This document shows, piece by piece, positions 3,501 to 20,711 of a stretch of DNA of 20,927 nt (the first letter of the stretch is position 1; each line of letters begins with the position of its first letter). A program made the position numbers and the translations under genes. This DNA is from a virus: IMG/VR virus record IMGVR_UViG_3300020469_000316, positions 1 through 20,927 of that record. One strand, written 5' to 3'. Under the pieces are notes generated by a model that did not search any database, had not been told where the DNA came from, and saw nothing but the letters and a program-made list of their open reading frames with translations.

Positions 3501-4910
3501 TGTAACCATTGTTGTAGTACCAGATTTAATTACTAAATTACCACCAGAATTAGTTAAAGAACCATATTGAGTAGTATTATCAAATAGATTTATAATACCA
3601 TCTTCTGCATCAAGTTTAATAGTTCCGTTTGAATTAACAGTAAAGTTGTCTGAATTGATTGTAAATGTATTTGAACCAGCACTAATCTCATGTGTTGATG
3701 CATCGAAGACACCTTCGATTTCGTTAATCGCACCTACTAAGGTTGTATCATGTGTTGTATTTAATCCTGTAACATCTCCGATGTCACCTTGAATTTCTTT
3801 AATACCACCAACAGAAGTTGTCGCACTATAGCCTGTTGCATCATTAATTTCTGTAACGTCACCAAGTTCTGTTCTTAATTCTCTTGCGGCTGCAGATAAA
3901 TTATTAGCACTCAATCCCGTGAGTGTCATATTACCTATGTCTGATTCATGGTCATTAATTGCTGTAACTAAATCGGCTGAACCTTGTGTAAGACTTTCTA
4001 GTGTTCCTATATCATCTTGAATTTCATTAACGGCATCAACTAAATCTGTTGCAACTATTGTTACTATATTTGTATTTGCTGCAGGAGTGTTTAATTCTAT
4101 ACCAAATCCATCGGCACTATAGTTTGTAATATTACCGTGATTAGAACCAGTGATAGTATCACTTGTACTTGAATTTTTTATTACTGTACTGGCATTAAAT
4201 GAACCATTTACAGTTTTAACTGTTAGTAATGTTGAACTAGCATGATATAAAGTACCAGACCAAGTTGCAGTATTTACACTATTACCTTGATAAACAAAAT
4301 CTCCTTCATGGAATTCTGAAACGTCTGGACTTCCTGAAAGTGGAATACTACCAGCAAGTGGAATAACATGGAAACCATTCTGCGATAAATCTTGTACTAG
4401 TTCTGCAGAATCTTTTAATACTCTAATTGCTGCAACATTATAACTTTCTGATATTTGTCTTACGATATTGGCATGGGCAATAGTTCCTGTGCCGTCTGTA
4501 AAATCTTGACCTGAATTAAAAGTACCAGATGAATTTTTAACAAGAAGTTTTGGTTTGCCATCTACTGTTGAGATTGCAACAAGAGTACAACTATATCCAC
4601 CACTTTGTGATAGTGTATCTCCAACTGCAAATGAGGCTGGTATGGAGGTACTATCTTTTAGAATAATATAACCACCAGTATTATCTAGTGAAACATCAGG
4701 TAATACACTGAATACTAAACTATCACTATTACTATCATTACCAATAAACTTACCACCATTAGCAGTAGTCGCAGTATAAGTATATACCTTATCACTTAAT
4801 CGAGTAGTATCTAGTTGACTATTGTCACCTAAATCAAAAGAAACCTCATTGGTCTTTTGTCTTAATTCTTCTAGTGTATTACTCTTTAAAACTTTTATTT
4901 CATTTGCCAT
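1..4910 (-). CDS. Giant tail-fibre protein, 3'-truncated by window edge
   Basis: The frame is open from an ATG at 4908-4910 to the window edge, giving 1636 codons with the C terminus missing. The N terminus (residues 10-32, NTLEELRQKTNEVSFDLGDN) matches the conserved start of fibre proteins in T4-like marine phages. It is followed by two F-x-x-G-E/D modules (residues 80-151 and 199-248), a helical region with repeated I-x-x-D-I-G motifs (about 265-400), four 13-residue LNILDG repeats (516-567), two copies of a GGITNAMLAGSI block, an SGDLTVTGDLTVSGDTTT segment, and 57-60-residue G-L-S-L-S-G-N repeats at the visible end. The role is probably host recognition as a trimeric fibre attached to the baseplate. 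The ATG overlaps the preceding stop (TAATG) and has a good ribosome site. No receptor-binding tip or fibre chaperone is visible because the gene leaves the window. I am sure it is a fibre-type structural protein but not which T4 fibre it replaces. Confidence 0.88.
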   Translation of the reverse strand, partial: MANEIKVLKSNTLEELRQKTNEVSFDLGDNSQLDTTRLSDKVYTYTATTANGGKFIGNDSNSDSLVFSVLPDVSLDNTGGYIILKDSTSIPASFAVGDTLSQSGGYSCTLVAISTVDGKPKLLVKNSSGTFNSGQDFTDGTGTIAHANIVRQISESYNVAAIRVLKDSAELVQDLSQNGFHVIPLAGSIPLSGSPDVSEFHEGDFVYQGNSVNTATWSGTLYHASSTLLTVKTVNGSFNASTVIKNSSTSDTITGSNHGNITNYSADGFGIELNTPAANTNIVTIVATDLVDAVNEIQDDIGTLESLTQGSADLVTAINDHESDIGNMTLTGLSANNLSAAARELRTELGDVTEINDATGYSATTSVGGIKEIQGDIGDVTGLNTTHDTTLVGAINEIEGVFDASTHEISAGSNTFTINSDNFTVNSNGTIKLDAEDGIINLFDNTTQYGSLTNSGGNLVIKSGTTTMVTGSGANATFAGTVTAVGTSVFTNLDISGNVDIDGSLETDALSIDGTTVSSTAAELNKLDGATLSTSELNILDGATLTTSELNILDGVTASATDINLIDGITNGTVIASKAIITDSNKDITGGRNITISGELDAVTLDISGNADIDGTLALGTLTNVETSITALQSDVGSNNFTSGLLLNSLGSTSNLTVAIKTLESEIGEDANYAFGTITYGDDTISKVLVNLNNELDDLNGLTLTAGAGLSGGGTLAANRTFDVNVDDSSIEINSDILRVKQGGITNAMLAGSIAATKLAGSIPNSKLVNDHYTIATNGTGNNFDIQLGDTFNFDEGEAINIALTSDKVTISAELATEINAGVATFDGTDFTVTSGDVTINDERIEDIVGTMVSGNTEDGIAVTYADNDTGAGKLNFDIDDTQVMRIQSGVGAQTIYGTKTFVGAVDLSGATVTFGSGGSIQNFNTQFLTLNADTNASGLRIDRSANTSATVSTSIFPDFFWDETQVGTGANNTSHRGWRLKGFSNASTPIANTADVVTFYNAKDLVSASNSSGITPTFTMNTSTTGEHQGIWDFDINVDNSSIEVSSDNLRVKAGGITNAMLAGSILASKLSGSIPNSKISNPSITIGNSTIALGGTDTTLTGLTDIDLTSGDKTIFDGVGAHTLTLGDSTTSIVTAGDLTVTGDLTVSGDTTTLNVATLSVEDTNITVAKAATTSSAANGSGLTFGDYIGKATFTYVHSGTKLVSNKPLHATSFHGDGASLSALNASNISTGTIADARLPNSISSSITGNAATATQVYVTENNTENTNLRLLFHDGTGTGNSGVEHDDNLLYNPSSNTLTAGTFSGAIAWTNITGKPTFDNYSSWTAADGANTPTSYPITSGDVLSFIDTNQIEPRFNADDQLKFNLVDNSIGALQLNVTGNGASGQALISDGDGSMTWSTISGDNTLYDLYVVQTGGNNTNPILRLDPSSGTNDDITLTGAGAVSITRTSNTGITISGANTTYTAGIGLVLSGTEFKVNLNSETVQSTAANSLSSTSSRTYSVQRDSGDNLVVNVPWQNTQRAAGTGLSLSGNTINANVDGTNTVAANASSTTALRTYKVQVDGSDNLVVNVPWANTQTPARSAGAGLSLNGNTIDANVDGTNSVSPNSSTNTGGRTYKVQVDSSDNLVVNVP
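1655..1803 (-). repeat. GGITNAMLAGSI fibre block, copy 2
   Basis: This segment encodes a block of about 48 residues, from N-V-D-N-S-S-I-E-V through G-G-I-T-N-A-M-L-A-G-S-I to S-I-P-N-S-K-I. It is a diverged copy of the block near 2605-2750. The 26 bases at 1720-1745 are identical to 2659-2684. Both copies are in the fibre frame. Confidence 0.8.
2605..2750 (-). repeat. GGITNAMLAGSI fibre block, copy 1
   Basis: This is the first copy, in reading order, of the block that recurs near 1655-1803. It encodes N-V-D-D-S-S-I-E-I through G-G-I-T-N-A-M-L-A-G-S-I to S-I-P-N-S-K-L. The motif is typical of shaft repeats in marine phage fibres, where repeated modules let fibres lengthen or shorten by recombination. 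Confidence 0.8.
3208..3363 (-). repeat. Four 39-base tandem repeats (LNILDG units)
   Basis: The cca/ccg landmark recurs at 3208, 3247, 3286 and 3325, an exact 39-base period, with each unit encoding 13 residues. In reading order the units are LNKLDGATLSTSE, LNILDGATLTTSE, LNILDGVTASATD and INLIDGITNGTVI. Similar A-E-L-N-x-L-D-G-V-T repeats are widespread in phage fibre proteins. Being an exact multiple of three, the array can change copy number without breaking the frame. Confidence 0.9.
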
Positions 4911-5110
4911 TATTTACCACCTAAATTTTTCAGTAGTTCTTTAATCTCAGCCACGTCGGCCTTCATCTGTGAAAATTCATTTTTAAAATTTTCTTCTTTT
5001 TTAATCTGCTTTAATCTATTTTCGTATGCAGTCATACTTGTATTTATAACTGCGTGAGAAGATAAATCCCTTTCTAAACCTATATTATCTTTTATTTTTA
5101 CTCTATTCAT
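4910..5110 (-). CDS. Small conserved coiled-coil protein before the fibre gene
   Basis: This 66-residue protein has an N-terminal part containing L-E-R-D-L-S-S-H-A-V-I-N-T and A-Y-E-N-R, a pattern I recall from small hypothetical proteins near the structural genes of T4-like marine phages. Its charged C terminus (about residues 32-63, ending E-I-K-E-L-L-K-N-L) has coiled-coil spacing. There is no signal peptide, membrane segment or cysteine. Its ATG overlaps the stop of the 1818-residue gene (TAATG) and its own stop overlaps the ATG of the fibre gene (again TAATG), so the three are probably translated together. It could be a minor virion or fibre-assembly protein; that is only inferred from position. 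The gene is very likely real because of the double coupling and its continuity with the neighbours. Confidence 0.75.
   Translation of the reverse strand: MNRVKIKDNIGLERDLSSHAVINTSMTAYENRLKQIKKEENFKNEFSQMKADVAEIKELLKNLGGK
4916..4922 (-). promoter_or_regulatory. Ribosome binding site of the fibre gene
   Basis: The coding strand reads AGGTGGTAAATAATG, with GGTGG six bases before the ATG at 4908-4910. It lies within the last codons of the 66-residue gene and supports the chosen start even though the genes overlap. Confidence 0.65.
5041..5048 (-). promoter_or_regulatory. Candidate late promoter inside the 66-residue gene
   Basis: The coding strand carries TATAAATA, the T4 late-promoter box, followed five bases later by an in-frame ATG (codon 25 of the small gene). 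Usual spacing would start RNA at or near that ATG, about 125 bases before the fibre gene. The same bases also encode the V-I-N of the small protein, so chance is a real alternative. Confidence 0.3.
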
Positions 5111-8100
5111 TATGTTGTTGCAATGGCCCTAAAGTCTTTTATTGTTGGTACACTTGAACTTCTTTGTGATTTTAATACAATCTTAACTGAGAAAGAATTA
5201 AAGGCACTAGCTGGAGTCGCGACATAACCTACTTCATTATATTCATTTCTATCATTAAAAGAAACAACACTATTTGGATTAACCAAAGTCCAACCTATAT
5301 CATCAAAATCAACATCGGTATCTCCACTTGTCTTAACGTAGACTTCTACTGATGTATGTGTAGGTCTGTTAATATTTAAGAACATATCAAGTTGAGTACC
5401 ATCAGTTGCCAGTTCTACTCTCTTAGTAATATATTTTGCAACACTAGATGTTCCTGTTCCAGATGTTTCTGCGACATAATTAGTTTCAGTATTTACCGGT
5501 TCATTAATTCTATTCTGAATTGCATTAAATGATGTTCTATTTAAATCAATTACAGGAGATAGATTTTCTATTCCAGCATTGGATAAAGTACATGTTAGTA
5601 GTAAGTTATTTGATAATGATTTATATGTTACATTAGTTGCAGAAGCAATACTAAATGGTTCATCAAAGAAAACATTTTTATTTCCTAATATTGTTTTATT
5701 ATCACTAAAAGTATAATGTACCTGGCCACTGTCTGCATTTTGTGACTTACTTCTTAACCCTCTATGTTGATATGTAATTTTTACATCATCAGCATCAGTT
5801 TCAGGATCACCTGGAAATTCTAATGAATTAACAGCAAGATAACCTGTATCATACATCTGATTTTCTGAAGCAGTAACACTTGCACCACCACCTCTTTGAC
5901 CAAGAGTAGTTGCAACATCACTTGGTATTCTAATTACATATGAATCATGTTGTGCGTCTTTTACTAAATGAGTTCCGTTAATACTTGAAGCTGCAATACC
6001 ATTAATAGTAGCCGGTGATGTTGGTACTCCAGCAATTGTAACTTTGTGTACATCATCACCTCCATACATTCCATGGTTTGGATGAATAACTCTAATGTTA
6101 CAATTTCCACTTACATTGGATTCAAAGATAAGTGGATCAACACCCAAATCTTTTACCTCAATAGTATCATTGCTAAGAACTACAGTAGCATTATTACTGG
6201 CATCTCCAACGAATGAAGCTCTTTTTAATTTAAATTTAAGGTCTTTATTTTGTTCTGCAGTCCATGTTGAGGCATTCTGTGATGTAAAGAATACACCATT
6301 AAATGGTTGTTTACTTATTCTATGGTTTGCATTTGTTAAATCAAACTTACTTGTTTCTGCAACATATACTTTATATATGTCAGAATTGGAAATAAGAACA
6401 ATGGCATATTCCTGTCCTTCTTTTAAGAACACTGGGAAGTCCCAATTAATACTTGTTGCAGTATCAGCATTACCTACACCAGCATTGGCAGAAGTGTCTG
6501 TTGGTAAACTAATATCGCCTGGATAAACTACAACATCTGCACCAGGTACAACCCTCTGAGTAGGATATCCATTCTCTACTTCTCTGATTGACACTTGAAC
6601 TGGTATTGCTGAATCTTTTACTGCAAAGAATATATCAATACCTGTAGTAAACATACCACCTCTGTTTGATACTAAGAATGTTTCAGCAAGAGGATCCGCC
6701 CATCTAATTACTTCATGTGATACTTCATTAGTTCTTCTTGTAATAGTATTTGTTTCTGATACTTCTCTAAAGGCCAATCTAGGAACTTTAGTAGAAATAA
6801 TTGTTTTTTGATATGTTTCTAAAATACCTTGTGCATAGAAATTCTCCGAAGCACTAGTAGTAGAATTTGCACTATTGTTTAATGAATCATCTGTTAGTTT
6901 AAATTCTCTAGTTCCAGTTTTAAATTGTAATGCATCATTTCTTGGAATAATAAATGAACCAATACATCTTCCAGATGCATCTGTTTCTAGTACACCTGAT
7001 GTTCCTGATGTTGCACCACTATCATCAACCCATTGAGTTTTATCACTAAATGTTTTAACATTAGATTGATCAGAGAATTCTAAGAACTCTGAATTAACAT
7101 GATTAGTGCCTGATTTGTTTTGGTTACAGTATGATGTAATATTAACACCATTAAAGAATGCATAAAGTTTAGTATTTGGTTTAAGAAGTTCTGCATTAAA
7201 ATAAACTCTCCTTGATCTCATGAAAGGAATAAAGTTTACTTCAACAACATAATTTCCTATTTCTTTTGTTTCTGTGTCATGAGTTACATATGTTTCTAGT
7301 CCATCTCTTGTTTGTGTACCAGTATTTAATACCGCAGTAGTAGTTGTGACAACATCTGCTCTAGCTCTATTAGCTCTTCCAGTACCATCTACTCCTCTTA
7401 AACGAGTAGCAGTATCCCTTCTAAAGGTTCCTCTATTCTGTCTGGTTGTACTTAAAACTTCTCTACCAGTCCAGTTAGTTTCCCATTCGTTCCAGACTGT
7501 TCCTAAGATACCTTGTGATTCGGCCATATTAACAAACTGTTCATACGCTGAATTATCATCAATGATAATATCTGGTCTTTGGTCAACATCTTTCCATTCG
7601 TCTGATTCTGGAGATAGTTTGATAGTTCCGTCCCATACTACAACATTATATGGATTTACAAATTCTGCATAAGAAGAAAGTGGTTGATTGATTTCTGTAA
7701 CTACATTATAAGGCATAGTTATAATTCCACCTCTTGTGGACTTAACTGCCTTATTACCTGAAATTGCAGCTGCCATATTTGCAGGTTCATCACCCGCTGC
7801 CCTAATTAAGTTTACATTTCTATTGTCTGATTTTGGTCTTAGTATACCATTAACTTTATCTACACCAATATCATAATCTGGGTGAGAGGTATCACCTACG
7901 TTATGTCCGAAGAAGCCGTCAACAATAAAACCATTTTTAAATCTTTCATTGGTTAGGTCAGGTTCAGTTGCACTAAAAATTTGTGCATCTTTTGCACTCT
8001 TTTCAAGTAGGGACAATGAAGTATAATACTCCAATCTTTTTACTCTCTTTTCAAGACCACCAATGTCTTGCATAGTATATCTCTTATTGTCAATCTTTGT

Positions 8101-10566
8101 TGGAACAACATCGCCAACATCAAAGACATAAGGATTTAAATTTAAAGTATAAAGATGAATTGAATTTTCTAAACCTTCTGGTTCTGTTGGATTAATTGAC
8201 GGCACACCAGATACAAGTTTATATTGTCCTTCTTTAGTTAAGAATAATTTATCTATTCTTGGTAGATGAAAGGCAAGTTCCATTTCAGCATTACCTGTAG
8301 GTTGAATAATAACCAGGGAACTCGAGCCAGTAGCTGTAAATTGTGCGTCTTCAGTTTGTGATGCACTTGTAGTAACTGATGGTCTAAAGTCAATACAGTC
8401 TCTTAGATTTAAACCTTTATATGTAGGAATACTAGTATAATCAGAATACGAATCAACAGAAAAATGGTTACCAGCACCAGCATGAATAAAGCATTTATAA
8501 TCGACTTGCATTGCACCAGCAGGTACTGACTGTCCACCTTTTAGAATAATCTTACCTCTGTCATAGAAAGAATCTCTTTGACCATTATCAAGGATAAACT
8601 TGTCTGTTACATCATTACCATTAACATCTGTAATTTCAGTTAATTCTTGAATATCAACATTTGATAATTCGTAAGATGCAGAACCATTAGCAGTAATTGA
8701 TTCATTATTAATAGTTTGTATTGTTCCTTTTGATTTAGGAGTATCATTTAGTTTTCTTAAAGTAAAGATACCTGTTGCAGCCTTTCCGTTAAATGATGAA
8801 CCAAGACTGGCAACAGTAACTGATGTTCCGTTATCAGTAACAGTTCCATCAGCAACTTCTACGGAGTCAACATTATCACTTAAAGTTCCTGCATGTATAA
8901 TAACATCATCATCATTTGCCAAACTAAAACCTGTTGGTATATTAAATGATACACTACCACCGCTTACATTACCTGAGCCTGTTAATCTTTTTCTAACATT
9001 AAAGTCTATGGTATTATTACCACTACCATCTTGTAAAGTTTGAACTGCCTCAAATGGTAGTTTATAAACCAATAGATTATCACCAGTTTTAAATCTTTGG
9101 CCATCAGCCGCTGGTAATAATTCTGCCTCGAATGAAGTGCCTTGCACAACTTTAGTTACGGCTGAGAAAGATTTACCAGATGCAATTGTTACATCAAAAA
9201 TGTATAACTCAAAACATGGAGAAGGAGTTGTTGCTGCGGCATCTGTAAAATATTCAAAGCCTCTTGCTCTTGCAGTTGCCTGGACCACACCACTATCATT
9301 GGTTAAGTTAAGTGTTGTGAATCCATTAATGTCTGGAGTACCTTCTACTGTGTCTGGTTTTAACTTAATAAAGTTACCAAACCCTGTGGACCTTCTTACA
9401 TTATCTACTCTTTGAGTAGAAGAATTTGCCCTAATGTTATCTAAAATAACATGTTCCGTTTTTGTTTTTTCTATTCTACGGCCATCAATATATGCAATTG
9501 CAGGTTCAATTCCTATTGCTATTTTGTTTGCGTTACCACCTTGTGATGAATCAAGAAAACCTTTATTATTATTTTGTCTTAAATGTTCTTTAATATCAAG
9601 AATAAAAGGAGAAAGTACATAATCGCCATGTGTTTCTTTTGTTCTAGTTTCTATTCTATCTAAGAATTCTGTATCAATTTGATTTTCATCTTTGTTTAAT
9701 ATCTCGCCATTTTCAACAGTGATTAAATGAATATATTCATTAACTGTTCTACTGGCCAAAGTGATATCAGATTCTTTTATAAGTACTGTATTAATAACAT
9801 ATCTATTGGCACCAGGCGCGGTATGGTTAGGACTACCCTGTGCATTATCTACTAATAAAGAATGCCCTGTATCTGTTGATGATACATCTGTTTCGGTAAC
9901 TTGTAGACCAATAATGTATGTTGGAGTATTTGTGTACTTATCTAGTACAATAGTTTCACTTGGTATATGGACGAAGGAACCTGAAATAAAATATATACCT
10001 TCTTCAACATTAAATGCTGAACCTTTACCTATGGCATTGGCAATACCAGAACCAGAACCTTGACCAATAGTAGCACTTCTTACAGTTGAGGCGTTAGATG
10101 AAATTGCTTCACCAACAGCAAAGGTCTTGGTTATTTTATTAGTACCTGAGTTTTTATATTTTACATAGAGAGTATCTGGATCACCACCACTAGCAGCAAC
10201 TACATTTATTACTTCAGCAACTACACCTGATGTTGCACCAGTAATATCTGTATTAAGAAACTCTGAAACATATCCTGAAATGGCACCACTGTTATGTAAG
10301 GCCTCTAATTTAATATATGCATATTTATCTCCAGCCAATAAAGTACCTTTACCTCCAAGTACTCTATCACCATCACTGTAAAAGGCCTGTCCTAATTTAT
10401 CTATTTGATTTTGTAAAGAAGTTTGTAATTGTGTTAACTCTCTAGCCTGTACAGCAAAACCTGGACGAAAAAGAATTCTATGATAATTCTTTGTTTCATC
10501 GAAGTCGTCGAAATACGGAGTGTTTTCAAAATGTTTTACGTTTGATATAGTGTCTCTATCTGCCAT
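5110..10566 (-). CDS. Very large DUF4815-type baseplate/tail structural protein
   Basis: The protein has 1818 residues. Its N terminus (residues 12-60: Y-F-D-D-F-D, N-Y-H-R-I-L-F-R-P-G, A-V-Q-A-R-E-L-T-Q-L-Q) matches the start of the giant structural proteins of T4-like cyanophages, which I recall under the DUF4815 name. Residues 99-168 hold an F-x-x-G-E module. A helical segment with coiled-coil character lies near 840-860 (L-E-K-R-V-K-R-L-E-Y-Y). Further family motifs are F-I-P-F-M-R-S-R near 1110 and D-P-L-A-E-T-F near 1290. It follows gp8 and precedes the fibre genes, the place that gp9 to gp12 take in T4. I infer that it forms the outer wedge or fibre attachment. There is no enzyme signature. 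The ATG is 31 bases after the gp8 stop, with a weak purine-rich site (AAGAGAG) about nine bases upstream. Confidence 0.85.
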   Translation of the reverse strand: MADRDTISNVKHFENTPYFDDFDETKNYHRILFRPGFAVQARELTQLQTSLQNQIDKLGQAFYSDGDRVLGGKGTLLAGDKYAYIKLEALHNSGAISGYVSEFLNTDITGATSGVVAEVINVVAASGGDPDTLYVKYKNSGTNKITKTFAVGEAISSNASTVRSATIGQGSGSGIANAIGKGSAFNVEEGIYFISGSFVHIPSETIVLDKYTNTPTYIIGLQVTETDVSSTDTGHSLLVDNAQGSPNHTAPGANRYVINTVLIKESDITLASRTVNEYIHLITVENGEILNKDENQIDTEFLDRIETRTKETHGDYVLSPFILDIKEHLRQNNNKGFLDSSQGGNANKIAIGIEPAIAYIDGRRIEKTKTEHVILDNIRANSSTQRVDNVRRSTGFGNFIKLKPDTVEGTPDINGFTTLNLTNDSGVVQATARARGFEYFTDAAATTPSPCFELYIFDVTIASGKSFSAVTKVVQGTSFEAELLPAADGQRFKTGDNLLVYKLPFEAVQTLQDGSGNNTIDFNVRKRLTGSGNVSGGSVSFNIPTGFSLANDDDVIIHAGTLSDNVDSVEVADGTVTDNGTSVTVASLGSSFNGKAATGIFTLRKLNDTPKSKGTIQTINNESITANGSASYELSNVDIQELTEITDVNGNDVTDKFILDNGQRDSFYDRGKIILKGGQSVPAGAMQVDYKCFIHAGAGNHFSVDSYSDYTSIPTYKGLNLRDCIDFRPSVTTSASQTEDAQFTATGSSSLVIIQPTGNAEMELAFHLPRIDKLFLTKEGQYKLVSGVPSINPTEPEGLENSIHLYTLNLNPYVFDVGDVVPTKIDNKRYTMQDIGGLEKRVKRLEYYTSLSLLEKSAKDAQIFSATEPDLTNERFKNGFIVDGFFGHNVGDTSHPDYDIGVDKVNGILRPKSDNRNVNLIRAAGDEPANMAAAISGNKAVKSTRGGIITMPYNVVTEINQPLSSYAEFVNPYNVVVWDGTIKLSPESDEWKDVDQRPDIIIDDNSAYEQFVNMAESQGILGTVWNEWETNWTGREVLSTTRQNRGTFRRDTATRLRGVDGTGRANRARADVVTTTTAVLNTGTQTRDGLETYVTHDTETKEIGNYVVEVNFIPFMRSRRVYFNAELLKPNTKLYAFFNGVNITSYCNQNKSGTNHVNSEFLEFSDQSNVKTFSDKTQWVDDSGATSGTSGVLETDASGRCIGSFIIPRNDALQFKTGTREFKLTDDSLNNSANSTTSASENFYAQGILETYQKTIISTKVPRLAFREVSETNTITRRTNEVSHEVIRWADPLAETFLVSNRGGMFTTGIDIFFAVKDSAIPVQVSIREVENGYPTQRVVPGADVVVYPGDISLPTDTSANAGVGNADTATSINWDFPVFLKEGQEYAIVLISNSDIYKVYVAETSKFDLTNANHRISKQPFNGVFFTSQNASTWTAEQNKDLKFKLKRASFVGDASNNATVVLSNDTIEVKDLGVDPLIFESNVSGNCNIRVIHPNHGMYGGDDVHKVTIAGVPTSPATINGIAASSINGTHLVKDAQHDSYVIRIPSDVATTLGQRGGGASVTASENQMYDTGYLAVNSLEFPGDPETDADDVKITYQHRGLRSKSQNADSGQVHYTFSDNKTILGNKNVFFDEPFSIASATNVTYKSLSNNLLLTCTLSNAGIENLSPVIDLNRTSFNAIQNRINEPVNTETNYVAETSGTGTSSVAKYITKRVELATDGTQLDMFLNINRPTHTSVEVYVKTSGDTDVDFDDIGWTLVNPNSVVSFNDRNEYNEVGYVATPASAFNSFSVKIVLKSQRSSSVPTIKDFRAIATT

Positions 10567-10597
10567 TTAATTTCTCTCTTTTATATAACGAATTCAA

Positions 10598-12040
10598 TTA
10601 GAATTCTATGATACATTTAATATCTTCAATCTGTGATGATGTTCTTGAAATAGGGGCTCTATTTTCTAAGAAAATCATTTGTCCACTACCTTCAACAAAT
10701 TCAGAATTCTGAACTGCATTAGAAGCTTTACTACTTGCGCTTCCACCGTTCGGGTTAGAACCTGTAATAGTTTCACCAGCATCTCTAAATTGTTTAAAAC
10801 CTGTTTTATTATTTTGGTAGTAATATAATCTTTCATTAGTAGTATCTATTTCTACTAAGTATGCCTTTGCATTAGATGTTCCACCATTAATAACTTGGTC
10901 TACTGCAAAGTTTGTAAAGGAGGCACCTGAAGCCATTTGTAAATATTTAAGACCTTTTAGTGTAGGGGCCGTTGCAACAGTATTCGTAACTGCTCCATTA
11001 GTCTCAGATGTATGACCACTGTCTGTGTTATTTGCTCTCTTAAAAGGATTCTTAATAATTGAAATTTGTCTAAAGTCATTTCCAACTGTTAAGTCACCAG
11101 ATTCAGCTGAATCTAATTGTGAATTAAGACCAACAAAGAATGATCCTAATTCTTTTACTGGATCAGTACCATGACCTGCGGGTGTACTAATAACTGCTCT
11201 TGCAGCTGCATCTGAACCACCACCGCCAGTAAATGAAATATTAGCAATAGTATAACCTTTACCTTTTGTAGTAACTGTAATTGATGTAACAGCATCACCA
11301 GTTCTAGTAGCAGTAGCCACTGCATCTGTAGTTCCGTCTCCTGTAATTACAACAGTAGGGTCAGATGTATATCCACTACCACCAGCAGTAACTACGATTC
11401 TTTCAATCCCTGCAGCTGTTGTAGAATTGTAAGATAGTACTTGAGAATTTTGTTGAGGATAATCTACGTTAGTAGTAGCAAGTGTAGTAGCCGCAGTACC
11501 ACTTGAAACTGTCATTGGTAATGTTTTAACAGGCATAAATTCTTTAGTTAAAAACTTCTCTGAATCTGCAGTGGTAATTGTATACATATATTTCCATGTA
11601 TAACCATCTGTATTATCAGTTACTGGATTAACACCAGTATGAACTGGTTGAACTGATGTAACACTAGGTCCTTGTTTAAGACACTTGTATACCTTAAACT
11701 CTGATGTTACTACATAAAACTTTTCATTGTATATGTTAGAATTACTTGAGTCCCATGCCACGTATGTAGCACCATCTGCGTAGTCGTACCTAGGTACTAC
11801 GTGTGAAACATCAGTAGATTGAATTCTTTTCATACCTATGATTTGTTGATACGCCTCATTAACTGCATCAGTGTGATCCGCTGGTACTGTAGGTGTAGAA
11901 TCAGTTAAAGTAGAAAGTGAACTAGACCATGCATCTGACTTACCTATAGCCACATAGATACTGTTATTTGAATCGGCGACATCTTCTTTGAAGTTCTCTC
12001 CATTGAGAACTCTGAAAGGGGTTGTAATTATTGCTGCCAT
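10598..12040 (-). CDS. 8: Baseplate wedge protein gp8, with two inserted modules
   Basis: The 480-residue protein matches T4 gp8 along its core: S-I-Y-V-A-I-G-K-S-D-A-W-S-S (27-40), V-V-P-R-Y-D-Y (81-87), F-K-V-Y-K-C-L (115-121), D-G-Y-T-W-K-Y-M-Y (145-153), F-R-Q-I-S-I-I-K-N-P (323-332) and the C-terminal S-G-Q-M-I-F-L-E-N-R-A-P (452-463). T4 gp8 is 334 residues and dimerises in the wedge. The extra length here is explained by two insertions: G-S-G-Y-T repeats at 211-285, and an F-x-x-D/G-E module at about 374-432, placed between N-P-F and the C-terminal block. The start is supported by AGGA seven bases upstream, and a late-promoter box lies 47 bases before the ATG. The stop is followed by a 31-base gap. 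Confidence 0.9.
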   Translation of the reverse strand: MAAIITTPFRVLNGENFKEDVADSNNSIYVAIGKSDAWSSSLSTLTDSTPTVPADHTDAVNEAYQQIIGMKRIQSTDVSHVVPRYDYADGATYVAWDSSNSNIYNEKFYVVTSEFKVYKCLKQGPSVTSVQPVHTGVNPVTDNTDGYTWKYMYTITTADSEKFLTKEFMPVKTLPMTVSSGTAATTLATTNVDYPQQNSQVLSYNSTTAAGIERIVVTAGGSGYTSDPTVVITGDGTTDAVATATRTGDAVTSITVTTKGKGYTIANISFTGGGGSDAAARAVISTPAGHGTDPVKELGSFFVGLNSQLDSAESGDLTVGNDFRQISIIKNPFKRANNTDSGHTSETNGAVTNTVATAPTLKGLKYLQMASGASFTNFAVDQVINGGTSNAKAYLVEIDTTNERLYYYQNNKTGFKQFRDAGETITGSNPNGGSASSKASNAVQNSEFVEGSGQMIFLENRAPISRTSSQIEDIKCIIEF

Positions 12041-12047
12041 TTTTTTA

Positions 12048-12051: not shown

Positions 12052-12052
12052 A

Positions 12053-14245
12053 TTAATCTAAAGTTATAAAACTATTTGTATTATAACTATTTATACTATT
12101 TTTATAATTGTTTTGAATGATTTGTGTACCTATTTGTTCAATAGTAAAATTACTACTCCAGGTATATTGTGTGTTACCAAACCGATCACCCTTATTATTA
12201 AAATAATTGTTTGTTGTTTGACTTAAATGATTTAGCATTATTTTTAAAATCATCTGAGTATCTTTTGCTCTATGCTCATCAATACTTCTTGAGAGTATAG
12301 TCACTGCTGGATTAAGTGTATAACCATTTCCTGCATTACTTATATTTATACTGTTAATTGTAGTTGGTATTAAGTAACCTTCAGCAGTAGCATTACTACC
12401 ACCTCCACCAGAAATACTAATTGTAGGTAACGCAGTATATCCACTTCCTTGATTTATTACTTCAATACCAGTTACATTTCCATTTTGTACTATTGCACGA
12501 CCTGTTGCATTACCTGATACAGTTACAGTTGGTTCAGAGGTATAACCACTACCACCATTTATAACCTTTATAAAATCTAAAGATGTAGAATCCATTACAA
12601 AGTTTGCAACGGCCTGTACATTACTTGATAATAAATTACCATCTGTATCTACGGCAGTAGGAGCTCCTATACTAATAATAGGAGGTCTTCTGTAACTTCT
12701 TTTAATTCTGTTAAAGATATTTAATTTACCAATCTTTGTAGTTGTTATATTATTAGAACTATCCTTTGGTTCAGTAACAGAAATATCAGCAGTAGTATAT
12801 CCACTGCCACCTGTTACTGTTACGGATTCAATTACTCCATCTGAATTAAGTACTGCTGTTCCACTTGCACCACTTCCATCACCTGTAATAGTAATAACAG
12901 GAGCCGACGCTGGAATATATCCAGAACCACCTTGTACTACAGTAACGGAACTAATCGCACCTCCAGATATAACTGGAGAAAGAACTGCTCTTCTATTTGC
13001 AAGAGCTTCTGGATTAGGAGTAAACATACTAATAAACATTTCTATGAGTAATGGTAAGTCCTCTGCTCCTATGACTCCTGGTTGTTGACCCGGCATAGAT
13101 GAAAGCGTTACTCTATTATTAAAACCTGGACCTCTTAAATTACCATATACGTTAAGTGTTTGATTCACTAATAAACCAGTTTCTGGATTTTTTGTTTGTA
13201 TTGTGATAGGTTTTACATTATCACCAAATGTATCTCTAGTAAGTTTTAATAAAATTAAAATCTCTCCAAAGAATATAAACCCTGCCGGATGGATTAACTT
13301 GTTAAATGTGTCTTTCCAATCATTGACATTTCTACCTGACTTAATTAAATATGAATATTTCTGGTAACGAAATGAGTCATGGATTCTAATATCTTTTTCA
13401 GATATAAAACCCTTAGTAGAAGTAAACTGGTTAATAGATGAGTCCCAATCACCTGCAGATGGAATAAGTGTATCGTCGTAAGGTCTTTCTACCTCTACTT
13501 CTTCATTAAAGAATAATCTAAAGAAAGTTTCAATAGAATCATCACTACCTCTTACTTTGTAAAAGTCAACAATTCTCTTATAGAGTACTGACTTGTTTGC
13601 TTGTAAGTCTGCAGGTATTGATGCAGCAATTTCTTTTTGCATCATTTCTAAATAGTCTTGTGATAACTGACCATCTTGATCCAAGTTCTTATCAATGTCC
13701 ATTGCATCTTCTAGTGCATTTAAAATATAAGATGGACCAGGACCTACCCAATTTCTAATGAGTGTGGTTAGTCTTGCGTTCCATCCATTATAAGCACTTA
13801 AACCCGAAATAGTAATTGTCTTACCAATTGCTGATGTGGACTTAGCCAATGAACCTGGAAGGTCATTACCATTACTAATCGCAACGTTAGATGATACTAA
13901 ACTAATAGTAACATCACTTTCTCCAGCTTTAGAAAGTACTAATGTGGAATTAGAACCATCGTCATCTGTAAAAAAACTATTACCATTTGCATCAGGGTCG
14001 GGATATCTAAAGACAGCCCTATTGATTAATATAATATCATTAAAAGTTTCTGTGGTCTGATAAGTAAATTCGTCCATATTCATGAACTCGTAGTACTTCT
14101 TTAAAAGGGTTTTAATACCACCTTCGCCGATATAGTTTTGTATCTCTCCTGGAATGAGCTCATTAATTCTTAAATCTTCTTTAGACTTTCTTTTAGTAGA
14201 ACTGATGCTCTCTACATATCCAGGTGAAAAAGTATCTTCAGACAT
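12053..14245 (-). CDS. Probable gp7-like baseplate wedge protein with GSGYT repeats
   Basis: The protein has 730 residues. The N-terminal half (residues 25-335) contains motifs I recall from the protein that follows gp6 in T4-like marine phages, notably Y-K-R-I-V-D-F-Y-K-V-R-G-S-D-D-S-I-E-T-F-F-R-L-F-F (222-246) and L-I-H-P-A-G-F-I-F-F-G-E (317-328). The C-terminal half has five G-x-G-Y repeats between 421 and 651, separated by a linker with an R-R-P-P turn near 519-522. Position after gp6 and before gp8 is that of T4 gp7, the 1032-residue wedge initiator, but this protein is shorter and I cannot prove homology. The ATG is one base after the gp6 stop, with AAGG ten bases upstream. If not gp7, it is a different wedge protein with the same place in the gene order. 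Confidence 0.65.
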   Translation of the reverse strand: MSEDTFSPGYVESISSTKRKSKEDLRINELIPGEIQNYIGEGGIKTLLKKYYEFMNMDEFTYQTTETFNDIILINRAVFRYPDPDANGNSFFTDDDGSNSTLVLSKAGESDVTISLVSSNVAISNGNDLPGSLAKSTSAIGKTITISGLSAYNGWNARLTTLIRNWVGPGPSYILNALEDAMDIDKNLDQDGQLSQDYLEMMQKEIAASIPADLQANKSVLYKRIVDFYKVRGSDDSIETFFRLFFNEEVEVERPYDDTLIPSAGDWDSSINQFTSTKGFISEKDIRIHDSFRYQKYSYLIKSGRNVNDWKDTFNKLIHPAGFIFFGEILILLKLTRDTFGDNVKPITIQTKNPETGLLVNQTLNVYGNLRGPGFNNRVTLSSMPGQQPGVIGAEDLPLLIEMFISMFTPNPEALANRRAVLSPVISGGAISSVTVVQGGSGYIPASAPVITITGDGSGASGTAVLNSDGVIESVTVTGGSGYTTADISVTEPKDSSNNITTTKIGKLNIFNRIKRSYRRPPIISIGAPTAVDTDGNLLSSNVQAVANFVMDSTSLDFIKVINGGSGYTSEPTVTVSGNATGRAIVQNGNVTGIEVINQGSGYTALPTISISGGGGSNATAEGYLIPTTINSINISNAGNGYTLNPAVTILSRSIDEHRAKDTQMILKIMLNHLSQTTNNYFNNKGDRFGNTQYTWSSNFTIEQIGTQIIQNNYKNSINSYNTNSFITLD
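12088..12095 (-). promoter_or_regulatory. Candidate T4-type late promoter for gp8
   Basis: A perfect TATAAATA lies on the coding strand inside the last codons of the preceding gene. With T4 spacing, RNA would start on an A near 12082, leaving a leader of about 42 bases that contains the AGGA ribosome site. This is the best-placed of four such boxes in the window. It assumes that the phage uses a gp55-type late sigma factor, which is not in view. Confidence 0.5.
12293..12985 (-). repeat. Five diverged GSGYT beta repeats
   Basis: Codons 421-651 of the gp7-like gene encode five units centred on GGSGYIPASAP, GGSGYTTADIS, GGSGYTSEPTV, QGSGYTALPTI and AGNGYTLNPAV. Each is preceded by an S/I-V-T-V strand and usually followed by a glycine-rich I-S-G turn. 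An 80-residue interruption lies between the second and third unit. The DNA is too diverged for a recent expansion. Confidence 0.8.
12343..12350 (-). promoter_or_regulatory. TATAAATA box inside the gp7-like gene (weak)
   Basis: A perfect TATAAATA lies on the coding strand, about 300 bases before gp8, within codons for S-I-N-I-S. It may be a second gp8 promoter, but in DNA this AT-rich a few boxes are expected by chance. Confidence 0.15.
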
Positions 14246-14246
14246 C

Positions 14247-16118: not shown

Positions 16119-16124
16119 AATATC

Positions 16125-16577
16125 TTACCTTATTCTTCGTAGAACTATATTAACTTGTCCTACTTCGTTAGTTTGTCTTATTAAGTACTTAACTTGTATA
16201 TTATAATTATTCTGTTCGGGTATACCCTTTACAGTAATTTTAATTAAACGGATACGTGGCTCACTTTCTAAGATAACATCTTCTATATTTTCTCTTAACG
16301 CTATCTCTGTAATAGTATCCATAGGCTCAAATAAAAGAGCTTTTAAATTCGCCCCTATCTGTGGCTGAAAGGGTCTCTCAAAGAAGTTAGTAAGAATTAA
16401 ATTCCTTACGGCATTCTTTATCGCCTCTGAATCTTTCAAAGGAGTGATATCATTACGGAAAGGGTGTAAAGTTAATTTTAAATCTAAATCTCTATAACCC
16501 TTAGTACGAGCGGTTCTATTAGTTACACTCTTATCTGATATGTTAATCGTACTTGATTTTCTTTCTACTGTTGCCAT
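16125..16577 (-). CDS. 25: Baseplate wedge protein gp25 (TssE-like)
   Basis: The 150-residue protein matches T4 gp25 (132 residues) and the contractile-system TssE/gp25 family. Diagnostic stretches are R-P-F-Q-P-Q-I-G-A-N-L-K-A-L-L-F-E-P-M (68-86) and E-S-E-P-R-I (104-109). The E-P-R tripeptide at 106-108 is the family's invariant core motif. gp25 sits at the inner end of the wedge, where the first sheath ring docks. The extra length is an N-terminal extension of about 20 residues rich in serine, threonine, lysine and arginine. The start follows an 18-base gap with no good ribosome site (AAGG is about 13 bases away). A TATAAATA box five bases before the ATG would place the RNA start on the ATG itself. 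Confidence 0.94.
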   Translation of the reverse strand: MATVERKSSTINISDKSVTNRTARTKGYRDLDLKLTLHPFRNDITPLKDSEAIKNAVRNLILTNFFERPFQPQIGANLKALLFEPMDTITEIALRENIEDVILESEPRIRLIKITVKGIPEQNNYNIQVKYLIRQTNEVGQVNIVLRRIR

Positions 16578-16582
16578 ATACT

Positions 16583-16590
16583 TATTTATA
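16583..16590 (-). promoter_or_regulatory. Candidate late promoter immediately before gp25
   Basis: A perfect TATAAATA lies in the 18-base gap before gp25, with only five bases (AGTAT) between the box and the ATG. At the spacing known for T4 late promoters, +1 falls on the A of the start codon, which would give a leaderless gp25 message. It is the only such box located outside coding sequence in this window. Confidence 0.4.
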
Positions 16591-16595
16591 ACCTT

Positions 16596-17918
16596 TTATA
16601 TGATGATTGTAATATTTTGGTTTACTTCTGTCGCGTTTTGTAGTATAATACTATTACCACTTATAGTATAATCTGTATCTAAAACACCAGATACCCCATC
16701 AATTAAAACTTTATTAGGTGCGACTTCCAGAGATAAAACAGAACCGAAATTGTCAACCCCCTGTATAGTGGACTGATCTTTCACCCTGGTAAAAACGTAT
16801 ATATCTGGCGAACTTCCTGTATCTCCTACTAGCGGGGTCGTATTTCTAGTCAATATAGGGAGAGAAGTTTTTCCTGGATTTAAAACGGGTGTTATAGTTA
16901 AAGGGTTAGTTAAGTCTATACTCTTCGGCAGCCCTATTAAAGAGAGAAAGTCACAGAAGTCAAACATCACCCAATCTAATATCTTTCCAAGTCCTATTGC
17001 GTCCAGAAATTTCTTTACTGTATTCAACCATTCTTGTATTAGATACTTCGGCCAGTTCTCTCCAAAGTCTCTTAACCCTTCTAAGAACCTTTCCATTCTT
17101 CTTTCATCACTGATAATAAACTCGTTGGGTGTACCCCCTAATATATCCATCAAATTAAAACCCGTTCCTGGTATACTAAGTGATTCCAAAGAAGTAATTA
17201 TCTGTTCTCTGACATCTTGTTTCAAGTTATCAGGTGCGTCTCGTAATTCGTCGCGTAAGCTGTCTATTCTATTTTTGATTAATGTTTCTATATCTAAACT
17301 AGTCAACGCTGGCAACGAGGGTAATCCTAAAGCGGACCATATCTCATCAAATAATTCTATTAGTTTTCCGGCAGCGCCATGTATTAAACCTAATGCGCCT
17401 TTGTTTAATTGTGCCATTATATATGAAAACAATGCCTCCAATTTAAAGTCGTCACTTACTAACCCATACTCACCATCGTATACTTTATAGGGGTCTGGAA
17501 TTAATGCATATAATTCGTTTAATTGGTTTACAAGCTGACCTTTTAGTGTTATAATATAAGTAGCATCAGTAAAGAACTTTAGTAAGTCTATATTAATCCC
17601 TATCCCTGGTATAGGAACAACAAAGTTTATTGGAGTTATCTCAGCGATTAATTCTAGTATCTTAACCTGGACGTATAGATGATATTCTTGTATCAACGCT
17701 GTAATGCGCTTCTCCCACTCGATCTCTGGTATTGTGAGAGATGCAAAGACTGGAGAAGAAACACTGATAGGAAACGCTCCTAGTAAGTCATCTATTTCCT
17801 GGAGTAAATCTTTTATTTCTTGTTCTGGTCTATTCGCAAGTTGAATAAAGATATTGGTTAAGTCTCCCTTAGTAGGAAGAAGAACCGCGGAACAAGGGAT
17901 ATCGATTCGGGTAGACAT
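16596..17918 (-). CDS. Unrecognised two-part structural protein between spike and gp25
   Basis: I do not recognise this 440-residue protein. Residues 1-335 look mostly helical, with long hydrophobic runs. A turn-like motif recurs as I-P-G-I-G-I-N-I-D-L-L (103-113) and I-P-G-T-G-F-N-L-M-D-I-L (249-260), suggesting an old internal duplication. Residues 222-300 are charged and amphipathic. The C terminus (about 370-440) is beta-rich and ends with V-L-I-D-G-V near 404-409, then D-Y-T-I-S-G-N-S-I-I-L, a pattern common at the ends of fibre and other virion proteins. There is no signal peptide and no clear enzyme motif. Between the gp5-like spike and gp25, it may be a hub, spike-tip or delivered protein; this is inference from position. 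The ATG is two bases after the gp5 stop, without an obvious ribosome site. The reading frame is intact and densely spaced with its neighbours, so the gene itself is secure. Confidence 0.8.
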   Translation of the reverse strand: MSTRIDIPCSAVLLPTKGDLTNIFIQLANRPEQEIKDLLQEIDDLLGAFPISVSSPVFASLTIPEIEWEKRITALIQEYHLYVQVKILELIAEITPINFVVPIPGIGINIDLLKFFTDATYIITLKGQLVNQLNELYALIPDPYKVYDGEYGLVSDDFKLEALFSYIMAQLNKGALGLIHGAAGKLIELFDEIWSALGLPSLPALTSLDIETLIKNRIDSLRDELRDAPDNLKQDVREQIITSLESLSIPGTGFNLMDILGGTPNEFIISDERRMERFLEGLRDFGENWPKYLIQEWLNTVKKFLDAIGLGKILDWVMFDFCDFLSLIGLPKSIDLTNPLTITPVLNPGKTSLPILTRNTTPLVGDTGSSPDIYVFTRVKDQSTIQGVDNFGSVLSLEVAPNKVLIDGVSGVLDTDYTISGNSIILQNATEVNQNITIII

Positions 17919-17920
17919 AG

Positions 17921-18439
17921 TTAAGAAGGCGTTCCGTTAAGATATATCTGAGGCGCTGTAAGTAATATGTTCCCTTTACTATCGAAAGTTATAGTAGAAG
18001 TAGAATTCGTGGCATGTGTGATTTTAATAGTTTCAGACCCTGATTTATTTTCTATCTCGAAGAGATGACCCGCCTGCGATTTATATACTTTCTTGGTAGT
18101 AGAGTGTTCACTAGGAACATCCACGACGCCATCAGTCTGTGACGAGATCGATCCCATCACCATTGGATCCTGTGCGCTTGGACCGTCTCTAAAGAATCCT
18201 ACCACCCATGAGCCTATCTCTAATTGATGTGATGATCCATTTCCTTTAAGTCCCGCTGATGTAGTAGGCATCATCACAGTCGCCCAGGGAAGATCACTAG
18301 TCTTTAATACTTTTTCATCCTCTTCATACCAACCAAAAGGTCTGACTTTTACTCTATTCATTTTTTCTGGATCGTCAATATCTTCTATCACTCCCGTGAA
18401 CCAGGAGAATTGTTGTTCTACAAATTCGTCTCTTCTCAT
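17921..18439 (-). CDS. 5: gp5-like baseplate spike protein lacking lysozyme domain
   Basis: The 172-residue protein has an OB-fold-like N terminus (about residues 12-102: F-T-G-V-I-E-D-I-D-D-P, N-R-V-K-V-R-P-F-G-W, D-L-P-W-A-T-V-M-M-P, G-S-W-V-V-G-F-F-R-D-G) typical of gp5 and VgrG spikes. It ends in a short beta-strand repeat segment (about 125-170: H-L-F-E-I-E-N-K-S-G-S-E-T-I, S-T-I-T-F-D-S-K-G-N-I) like the start of a spike beta-helix. T4 gp5 is 575 residues with a lysozyme between these parts; here it is absent, and there is no room for it. The protein should trimerise on the gp27-like hub encoded next to it. Its ATG overlaps the hub stop (TAATG), and GAGG seven bases upstream supports the start. 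A peptidoglycan-degrading function, if any, must be encoded elsewhere. Confidence 0.85.
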   Translation of the reverse strand: MRRDEFVEQQFSWFTGVIEDIDDPEKMNRVKVRPFGWYEEDEKVLKTSDLPWATVMMPTTSAGLKGNGSSHQLEIGSWVVGFFRDGPSAQDPMVMGSISSQTDGVVDVPSEHSTTKKVYKSQAGHLFEIENKSGSETIKITHATNSTSTITFDSKGNILLTAPQIYLNGTPS

Positions 18440-19758
18440 TATATTACCTCTTTCTTATCTAAATCGACACTGCTTGAGTTTCTTTTCACAGTTACACTCA
18501 TCAGATAGTCATTTGTTTTCATATCATGTACTATATTAGTAACTAAATATTTTCCACTTTGAACTTTATTCACAGTTTCTTTCGCTTTACTTTCTATTCG
18601 CGTCTCTGGTATTTCTATTTCTATAATCATTCCCACATTTAATCTAAAATCGCCGGGTATTAATATCTCATGTGATTGATATTCCATATTCTCTAAGTGT
18701 GAATAACCTTTTCCTACATTACTTTGAAGTGTCGCATAGTAATTATCTTTCTTATCAAAGGATTTACTATTAAGATTAAAGAAAAAGTTTTTCGCTGCAG
18801 GGAAATCTGTTAAGCTTTTTTCTTTTATTTTATTTTCTCCATCCAAATCCGCAAAAGGTTTAAATTCTTCTATGGTTGAATTGGTATCTTTCTTATAATT
18901 ATATATTTTTTTGGATGTTGTTTTAGTAGCTATATCAAAGAAGTGAGACGTATTAGAAAAAGCCCCTTGTTGAAGTCCTGTGAACTTAGAAACACTATAG
19001 TCTGAAGACATTTCTATGATTCTTTTTCTTGTTTCTTCGTAACCTTTGTCTGATTCCAAATTACTAGTAAGTGTTTCTCTTATAGAATACTTATCAAATG
19101 GTTCTTGATCAATCATACTCTTAAGGCTTTTGAATTTTATTCCATTTGTGAAAGTCTCATAGAAATAATAAGGAGTTCCATCGTCAAATGTATTTACTAA
19201 TAAGAAATTTATTGCACTTAATGGTTTGAGTTTAGGAAAAACTCCAGACATTTTAGGAGTCGCAGTGTCTATCTCTAGTTCTTTCTTAGGGATATCCAAA
19301 TCTGACATACAGATGTTTTGAATCGTTTGTCCTACTGTTCCTTTAAAGGAATTACCCTTGGATATCACTTGATTACTGAGAATATGCGGTGAAATACACC
19401 TCATCTGATACGTCGTCAAGCCACGTTTTTCCTTGACAAAGTTCAATACCTCTATGACACGAAAATCGAGTAAATATTTTTCTTTTCCGTAGTGTGCGTT
19501 TCTATCTAATTCTACGGAAATTTTTTCATTACCAGAAAGTCTTAACCTCTCTATGTAATTTTCTGAATCCCCTACAGAAATGATAATTTCCAGGCCTGGA
19601 TTCTCTATATTTTCGATTACTTCTATTCTTGTTACTAGATTAGTGATGTCAAAATCAAATTTTCCATTTTCTCCATGAGTATGATTCGATGTGATTATTA
19701 TTTTTCTACTATATGAAGTAGGTATTATTGTATTTCTGGCAGAACTTTTTTCAGACAT
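18439..19758 (-). CDS. gp27-like baseplate hub protein
   Basis: The 439-residue protein resembles the hub family (T4 gp27, 391 residues; phage gpD; N-terminal VgrG). The N terminus has a sheet pattern around I-T-N-L-V-T-R-I-E-V-I-E-N-I. The middle shows G-T-V-G-Q-T-I-Q-N-I-C (about 140-150), L-K-P-L-S-A-I-N-F-L-L and P-Y-Y-F-Y-E-T (about 196-202). The C terminus has I-P-G-D-F-R-L-N-V-G-M-I-I-E-I-E-I-P followed by S-G-K-Y-L-V-T-N-I-V-H-D, the usual closing pattern of hub proteins. gp27 trimers form the channel ring that carries the gp5 spike, and the gp5-like gene follows with a one-base overlap. In T4 the gp27 gene is in a different cluster, so the arrangement differs from T4. The start is 11 bases after the gp53 stop and lacks a ribosome site, preceded by an A-rich stretch. 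Confidence 0.77.
   Translation of the reverse strand: MSEKSSARNTIIPTSYSRKIIITSNHTHGENGKFDFDITNLVTRIEVIENIENPGLEIIISVGDSENYIERLRLSGNEKISVELDRNAHYGKEKYLLDFRVIEVLNFVKEKRGLTTYQMRCISPHILSNQVISKGNSFKGTVGQTIQNICMSDLDIPKKELEIDTATPKMSGVFPKLKPLSAINFLLVNTFDDGTPYYFYETFTNGIKFKSLKSMIDQEPFDKYSIRETLTSNLESDKGYEETRKRIIEMSSDYSVSKFTGLQQGAFSNTSHFFDIATKTTSKKIYNYKKDTNSTIEEFKPFADLDGENKIKEKSLTDFPAAKNFFFNLNSKSFDKKDNYYATLQSNVGKGYSHLENMEYQSHEILIPGDFRLNVGMIIEIEIPETRIESKAKETVNKVQSGKYLVTNIVHDMKTNDYLMSVTVKRNSSSVDLDKKEVI
18447..18450 (-). promoter_or_regulatory. Ribosome binding site of the gp5-like gene
   Basis: The coding strand reads AAAGAGGTAATATAATG, with GAGG seven bases before the ATG. It lies inside the final codons of the hub gene and supports translation through the one-base overlap. 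Confidence 0.65.
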
Positions 19759-19769
19759 AACTATTTTTT

Positions 19770-20711
19770 TTATTTGTTAAGAATTTTCTCAAATTCTGAC
19801 ACAAACTCTCCTATGAATTCTGGATTGATTACTCTAATAGAGGACCTTTCGTCATTTTTTTCTTGAATGTGTTCTCTATTAGTCACTATAGACAATGCGG
19901 TTTCTGATTTGGCCAATCTTTCTGATGGAATATTTAATTCATTCTGTAATCCTTCTACAGTTGCGTAAGAAGGTTGGTATAAATTTGAGATAGTGGTTGG
20001 ATTTCCTTCATCAAGAGGAGAAGGATCATCAATAAATCTTTCGTTAGTGTAAATTCTTTTTTCTGTTGCTCCTGTGACTACGTCAGTTTCATTAATGTAG
20101 TAGTGATGTGGTGCATCGACGTACTTATATACTATATGAGACTGTACTTCCTGTCCAGTAGAACCCCCTGCGATGGTTTCTTTTTGATTTCCGTCACCAA
20201 TAAATGCAGCGTTACCACTTCCAAGTGTAACATTTTGGACTATTAATTGATTTAAGTCAATATTTTTTCTTACAAGAGTACCACTACACCCAGAAGCCCC
20301 TCCAGTAAGTGTTTCTCCTAACTGGAATTTACCAGCGATAGAATTTTCTGTCTGAAAACCTCCATCACTAGTAGGAGTTACGTTAGGATCACAAGTAATT
20401 GCAAATCCATTGTACTCAGTATTCAAATATTCTAGTAAAAGTTCTTGTGACATGGGCCAAACTTTATATCCATCGTGCAAAAATTCATTTACTACAAAGA
20501 AAGTCCAATAATATTCTGGAGTTCCATATAATCTTTGCGAAGTAATGTCTGGTCTCTCTCCATTTTTTATTTCATACTTCATATACAGAGTAGGAGAGTC
20601 AACAAATTCTTGAAGTGGTCGTACACTTCTATAGATATCTACTATTTTTTGAACTGTGCCCGTTCGATTTATGTCATAATCTACTTTTGGAAATAATTTA
20701 AAATAGCTCAT
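19770..20711 (-). CDS. 53: Baseplate wedge protein gp53 with an inserted module
   Basis: The 313-residue protein matches T4 gp53 (196 residues) at both ends. The N terminus has T-L-Y-M-K-Y-E-I-K-N-G-E-R-P-D-I-T-S-Q-R-L-Y-G-T-P-E-Y-Y-W-T (41-70), matching T4's R-P-E-E-L-A-N-A-I-Y-G-N-P-Q-L-Y-W region. The C terminus has I-R-V-I-N-P-E-F-I-G-E-F-V-S-E-F-E-K-I-L (about 292-311), matching the T4 end. gp53 joins neighbouring wedges when the baseplate closes around the hub. Residues 105-195 are an F-x-x-G-E module absent from T4 gp53, and account for most of the extra length. The ribosome site GGAGG lies six bases before the ATG. The preceding gene ends two bases upstream. Confidence 0.93.
   Translation of the reverse strand: MSYFKLFPKVDYDINRTGTVQKIVDIYRSVRPLQEFVDSPTLYMKYEIKNGERPDITSQRLYGTPEYYWTFFVVNEFLHDGYKVWPMSQELLLEYLNTEYNGFAITCDPNVTPTSDGGFQTENSIAGKFQLGETLTGGASGCSGTLVRKNIDLNQLIVQNVTLGSGNAAFIGDGNQKETIAGGSTGQEVQSHIVYKYVDAPHHYYINETDVVTGATEKRIYTNERFIDDPSPLDEGNPTTISNLYQPSYATVEGLQNELNIPSERLAKSETALSIVTNREHIQEKNDERSSIRVINPEFIGEFVSEFEKILNK
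20127..20399 (-). other. F-x-x-G-E module inserted in gp53
   Basis: Residues 105-195 of gp53 encode K-F-Q-L-G-E-T-L-T-G-G-A-S-G-C-S-G-T-L-V, a strand L-I-V-Q-N-V, then further glycine-rich turns. The T4 protein has no counterpart at this site. Similar modules lie at 10063-10272 (1818-residue protein), 10745-10921 (gp8), and 4458-4673 and 4167-4316 (fibre). Confidence 0.6.

Follow-up and report, generated by a model that had tools for sequence, protein, structure and literature searches.

Across tailed phages, a module of about 60 residues recurs in numerous virion proteins that are unrelated to one another, and a single stretch of phage baseplate genes holds five copies of it. These five segments represent one small domain and have a common ancestry. 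Together with their relatives they form a new, unnamed family, whose distribution is wider than the earlier note on this DNA had supposed.

The window and its carrier proteins

The window, by which we mean the whole stretch of 20,927 nucleotides analysed, is a 20.9-kb fragment of the baseplate region of a T4-like myovirus, with all of its large genes on the minus strand. The gene order is gp53, a tail protein, a short gp5-like gene, a 440-aa orphan, gp25, gp6, a 730-aa protein, gp8, an 1818-aa VrlC/DUF4815 protein, a 66-aa protein and a fibre gene that runs off the end of the window. A very similar order is found in Pelagibacter phage HTVC008M and phage C48C1, both Kyanoviridae, and in HTVC008M it is VrlC that occupies the place of the 1818-aa protein.

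Four of these minus-strand genes carry the module. The first is the baseplate wedge gene gp53 (19770-20711; Pfam PF11246, phrog_232), whose product has an N-terminal core that matches PF11246 above the curated cut-off (E = 4e-6) and T4 gp53 in the PDB (E = 4.5e-5). The second, the wedge gene gp8 (10598-12040), is matched over its full length by phrog_438 and has gp8 core sequence at both ends (PF09215, E = 5e-23; gp8 of 9f4a, E = 9e-16). The remaining two are the 1818-aa VrlC/DUF4815 baseplate protein (5110-10566; PF16075, phrog_358) and the fibre-like protein (3-4910), the latter defined by its open reading frame and its relatives (L241-L286).

Two other genes in this region are unusual. The 440-aa protein (16596-17918), whose gene separates the gp5-like gene from gp25, has few relatives and no PHROG match. 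The 172-aa gp5-like protein (17921-18439) matches only the N-terminal part of the hub/lysozyme families, which indicates that the lysozyme domain is missing.

The five segments are copies of one domain

The limits of the five copies, all encoded on the minus strand, were set by HMM searches. In gp53 the module covers residues 123-194 (20130-20345; E = 2e-13), with further support from an alignment of gp53 from seven phages and from an AlphaFold model; relative to the short gp53 proteins of 168-213 aa, the entire insertion spans about 20118-20405. The gp8 copy lies at residues 377-430 (10751-10912; E = 2e-11), as also seen in the T4 gp8 alignment and by hhalign, and that in the 1818-aa protein at residues 106-162 (10081-10251; E = 4e-8, or 8e-6 in the decoy run described below, and hhalign). 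The N-terminal region of the fibre contains two copies, at residues 89-144 (4479-4646; E = 6e-6, AlphaFold) and 198-254 (4149-4319; E = 7e-9, hhalign and AlphaFold). The segments are thus in the proteins named by the earlier note and close to where it had placed them, with tighter limits.

The search began with relatives of gp53 taken from viral contigs, in most of which the insert is a conserved segment. With a profile of the gp53 inserts alone, gp8 came up at the very first attempt; before iteration the set was widened with relatives of the other carriers (gp8, the 1818-aa protein and the fibre). Over five rounds, the profile built only from the gp53 insert reached all five segments and none of the other window proteins, which is the connection that the earlier note had suggested looking for. 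In a decoy test, the gp53 seed was iterated five times against ∼6,400 ORFs together with their reversed and shuffled copies. This gave 482 real domains and no decoy, and among the 12 window proteins exactly the five segments were recovered. Twelve control seeds likewise drew in no decoys; nine of them kept to their own family, and the other three matched only a separate repeat, GGSGYT, found in the 730-aa protein and gp8.

Since iteration may inflate E-values, the evidential weight lies with the decoy count and with an independent profile-profile ranking, which groups the segments in the same way as the iterated HMM search. By hhalign, the gp53 and gp8 modules (prob 90) and the gp8 and 1818-aa modules are linked within a range of prob 84-91, and the two fibre copies link to each other at prob 98-99. 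The direct links between the fibre copies and the gp53 module are weak (prob 8-31). These weak single comparisons are what would be expected if the segments had no shared ancestry and were Gly/Ser/Thr-rich beta stretches, alike by composition. We regard that explanation as very improbable, since the zero decoys in the reversed and shuffled sequences rule out an artefact of composition, the control seeds did not converge on the module, and the strand register is the same in independent structural models of the gp53 and fibre segments.

Shape and predicted fold

The consensus of the module is NSIAGTFTVGETITGGTSGATATVVSVDASSNTLYVKNVSGTFSAGETITGSTSGSTVTIAEV. The earlier note had picked out an F-x-x-G-E pattern, which is indeed present, but the module is better described as a near-duplicate of ∼36 residues occurring twice, so that the pattern G-x-F-x-x-G-E-x-I-T-G-x-x-S-G appears in each of two similar halves of the ∼60 residues. 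Conservation is highest at the F, G, I/V/L, SG and A/G columns, as in a small beta structure, and there is no invariant catalytic, metal-binding or polar set among them.

AlphaFold models were made of the gp53 module and of fibre residues 74-280, each from a separate family alignment, with mean pLDDT values of 89.6 and 94.2, respectively. The core strands (residues 134-137, 143-150 and 155-162 of gp53; 99-101, 107-116 and 119-128 of the fibre) fall on the same alignment columns and in the same register, so for the two segments modelled, the structural comparison proposed in the earlier note points to one fold. Neither model named a confident fold family in searches of the PDB, and the gp53 model gave no confident match there. 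Its low-confidence matches included small barrels of pyruvate kinase and of eIF2-gamma domain III, which were not used. A fold search of BFVD matched about 45 viral proteins with a probability close to 1, among them a fibre protein, a neck protein (gp14) and a tail sheath.

Insertion sites, divergence and history

The gp53 proteins of T4, HTVC008M, Mosig, S-CREM2, S-H34, Vibrio phage K471 and BUCT-ZZ01 are 168-213 aa long and have no module; in the window and in C48C1 the module occupies one loop, before a conserved HHY-type motif. In gp8 the module is flanked by FRQISIIKNP and SGQMIFLENR, where T4 gp8 has about 25 residues. In both proteins, then, the module is a clean loop insertion, and the ortholog alignments bear out the statement that T4 gp53 and gp8 are without it. 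The claim that it had been inserted into all four proteins is supported for these two; the 1818-aa protein and the fibre have relatives that nearly all carry it. Among relatives that were picked by similarity to the window proteins, which biases the fractions upward, the module is present in 25/27 for gp53, 73/85 for gp8, 99/104 for the 1818-aa protein and 34/35 for the fibre.

Within a given protein, the module diverges faster than most of its flanks. Mean pairwise identity is 0.36 for the gp53 module against 0.54 and 0.52 for its flanks, 0.39 against 0.46-0.61 in gp8, and 0.46 against 0.64 and 0.53 in the 1818-aa protein; the two fibre modules have values of 0.49 and 0.39, with flanks of 0.46-0.53.

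A tree of 100 modules, poorly resolved as it is built on 60 columns, requires 10 changes of carrier label, compared with a minimum of 4 and a mean of 59 when labels are shuffled. Modules cluster by carrier, which suggests that most of the spread is old and that modules have mostly been inherited with their carriers. The 10 changes, and the grouping of all the fibre copies together, further suggest that each carrier acquired the module once or a few times. The idea of a mobile domain therefore stands in so far as the module has moved between unrelated virion proteins, but on this tree the movement was mostly old and the insertions few. Clustering by carrier would also be seen if the carriers descended by duplication from one ancestral protein that retained the domain, so that nothing moved; this is scarcely credible, as the carriers come from families with no relation to one another (neck, tube, adaptor, gp8, gp53) and, although parallel loss could be argued, short gp53s and T4 gp8 are without the module at the same loop.

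Distribution among phage proteins

The bare consensus matched 14 PHROG families at E <0.003 and 16 at E <0.1, including phrog_9851, 460, 358, 18802 and 693. These families are defined on whole proteins and none of them defines the domain, so that the module is an unlabelled part of their profiles. When viral contigs were scanned with the same consensus, at least 490 of 600 candidate stretches were confirmed. Among 54 dissimilar module proteins, the Pfam carriers were the SU10 adaptor (7), T4 neck (6), gp8 (5), DUF4815 (4), baseplate wedge (4), Phage_tube_2 (3), CBM_5_12 (2), gp53 (1) and beta-helix (1), and overall, relatives of the module were seen in neck, SU10-type adaptor, tail tube, major tail and gp7-like proteins. 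PF16190 (E1 FCCH) also matched two of the module proteins. Both these Pfam carriers and the BFVD fold matches agree with the earlier view of a module common to unrelated virion proteins. The association with marine phages and the outer baseplate was too narrow: the module is neither marine-only nor, given its neck, adaptor and tube carriers, baseplate-only.

There were also 17 matching loci in bacterial and archaeal assemblies. Several of their carriers are phage tail proteins, namely Phage_tube_2 proteins in assemblies labelled Omnitrophica and Nitrospirae and a major tail protein, and for this reason at least these loci are probably proviral or belong to co-binned phages. The chromosome of Candidatus Velamenicoccus archaeovorus (L306, 5674-6816) encodes a 381-aa protein with one module, which has the size and layout of the tail-tube-like proteins in the Omnitrophota and Nitrospirae assemblies; its locus is possibly a provirus.

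No Pfam or NCBIfam model covered the module in searches with the consensus, in keeping with the earlier note, in which no named family was given, and sequence searches of the PDB with the consensus and three profiles gave no relatives. Designed WRAP proteins did appear as a PDB match, but this was a sum of weak repeat matches with no single stretch that passed, and it was rejected. In the open-licence literature searched, we found no description of a repeat or mobile domain of this kind.

The gp7-like protein and a candidate copy in T4 gp7

The 730-aa protein (12053-14245, minus strand), encoded between gp6 and gp8, was identified as a gp7-like wedge protein by hhalign and by a survey of its insertion site. 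It shares a core with residues 733-900 of T4 gp7 (hhalign prob 87, E = 4e-6). According to a published survey, marine T4-like phages have no gp7 and carry VrlC in its place (PMC7029224); the presence of a gp7 core in the 730-aa protein speaks against a complete absence. Counterparts of this protein are annotated as ‘head closure Hc2’, and the Hc2 profile shares both the module and the GGSGYT repeat. The 730-aa protein holds several copies of that repeat, and gp8 a single one (11201-11428). Like the module, the repeat is dispersed in the same baseplate proteins, but it is a separate sequence family, and its profile and that of the module do not cross.

Between two conserved cores of the gp7-like proteins there is a variable site, which holds 23 aa in the window. 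Of 133 sequences, about 90 have 20-29 residues there; in others the site reaches up to 837 residues and is filled by the module together with GGSGYT repeats. The module lies between these cores in L048, L076, L212, L223, L353, L372 and L376. L367 also has a hypervariable site with mixed repeats, and the L076 protein contains additional HGF-x-x-GD repeats.

In T4-type gp7, the same two cores are separated by 101-105 residues, and there the stretch DLVGQTIYTATGRCNVTYIERSYSNGKLQWTVTIHNLLGRLIAGQEVKAE, at about 774-841, fits the module pattern. The fibre model matched chains in structures of two T4-type baseplates, both judged by their length to be gp7: 5iv5_BJ of the T4 baseplate, with 1004 residues (prob 0.89, rmsd 3.4, E = 0.41), and a 1031-residue chain of 9f4a (prob 0.69). 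In the PDB fold search with the gp53 model, gp7 was not among the top 50. The T4 gp7 profile gave hhalign probabilities of 30-41 with the gp53 module, its best match in the window, which is not significant, and the direct HMM search for T4 gp7 gave nothing above the decoys. The stretch resembles the module of gp7-like relatives in occupying the same variable site, but differs in that its sequence match is not significant, and we treat it as a weakly linked candidate that may be a divergent copy. The earlier statement that T4 is without these insertions in gp53 and gp8 holds, with gp7 as a candidate carrier in that phage.

Possible function of the module

We think it probable that the module is an accessory domain, shared and promiscuous, that faces outward and has no fixed ligand, a reading with which its optional presence in loops, the variety of its carriers and its faster divergence all fit. 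The optional loops and the faster divergence also fit the earlier suggestion that it may decorate the outside or mediate contacts. Such a domain would tolerate insertion into loops, would face outward, and would multiply weak contacts, whether with the surface of the host or with adjacent parts of the virion. Its likeliest use may be low-affinity adhesion that adds avidity, a more tentative assignment. Some observations count against the accessory reading. The module's presence in 95-97% of the relatives of the fibre and the 1818-aa protein would equally suit a fixed part of the structure, and faster divergence fits relaxed constraint without binding too. The absence of a confident PDB match for the gp53 model and the poor resolution of the tree weigh on the same side.

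Phage Ig-like domains provide the closest comparison. These domains (Big_1, Big_2, I-set and FN3; Fraser et al. 2006, as cited in PMC9022992) are peripheral and dispensable for tube formation or infection, with some mutants infecting less efficiently (PMC9022992). Like the module, they are small beta domains found on unrelated virion proteins such as tube, fibre and baseplate, and optional between relatives. The module differs in its size of about 60 residues, in its two similar halves, and in being an in-frame loop insertion in gp53 and gp8, whereas Ig-like domains are appended at the C terminus. Neither the consensus nor the fibre region matched a Pfam model of the Ig clan (Big_1, Big_2, I-set or FN3) at E up to 10, where only unrelated weak matches appeared. 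Judged from these sequence comparisons, the module appears analogous to the phage Ig-like domains and unrelated to them by sequence. A bolder proposal, which we consider rather unlikely, is that it represents another broad class of promiscuous virion domain in addition to the Ig-like one, spread over contractile, long flexible and short-tailed phages, with an unrecognised divergent copy in T4 gp7 and a role in adjustable adhesion.

The strongest alternative to an accessory domain is an internal brace, in which each copy would pack onto an adjacent wedge subunit, so stabilising a larger baseplate, instead of acting as an adhesin. Near-fixed presence in relatives of the 1818-aa protein and the fibre fits this, carrier-specific contacts would predict the clustering of modules by carrier, and gp7 and gp8 are adjacent in the T4 wedge (PMC3004832). 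Nevertheless, modules diverge faster than most of their flanks, the gp53 of many related phages is cleanly without one, and tail-tube, adaptor and major tail proteins have the module but other neighbours; on balance we consider a brace unlikely. Less likely still is a neutral spacer, self-folding and harmless at permissive loops, that spread by recombination and has no selected function. Low module identity is in its favour, as is the mixture of modules and GGSGYT repeats, 23 to 837 residues in length, tolerated at the gp7-like site; but a neutral spacer would not be expected to persist at single sites for as long as the module has in the families of gp8, VrlC and the fibre.

Whichever function applies, the module lies without a name of its own in 14 or more families of phage proteins and may draw unrelated proteins together in annotation, as with the gp7-like proteins between gp6 and gp8 that bear a head closure label. 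A domain model would help to mend such labels. Should the module prove to be an adhesion domain on the outside, it would account for some of the growth in baseplate size of marine T4-like phages, and would offer a testable handle on how these abundant phages make contact with their hosts.
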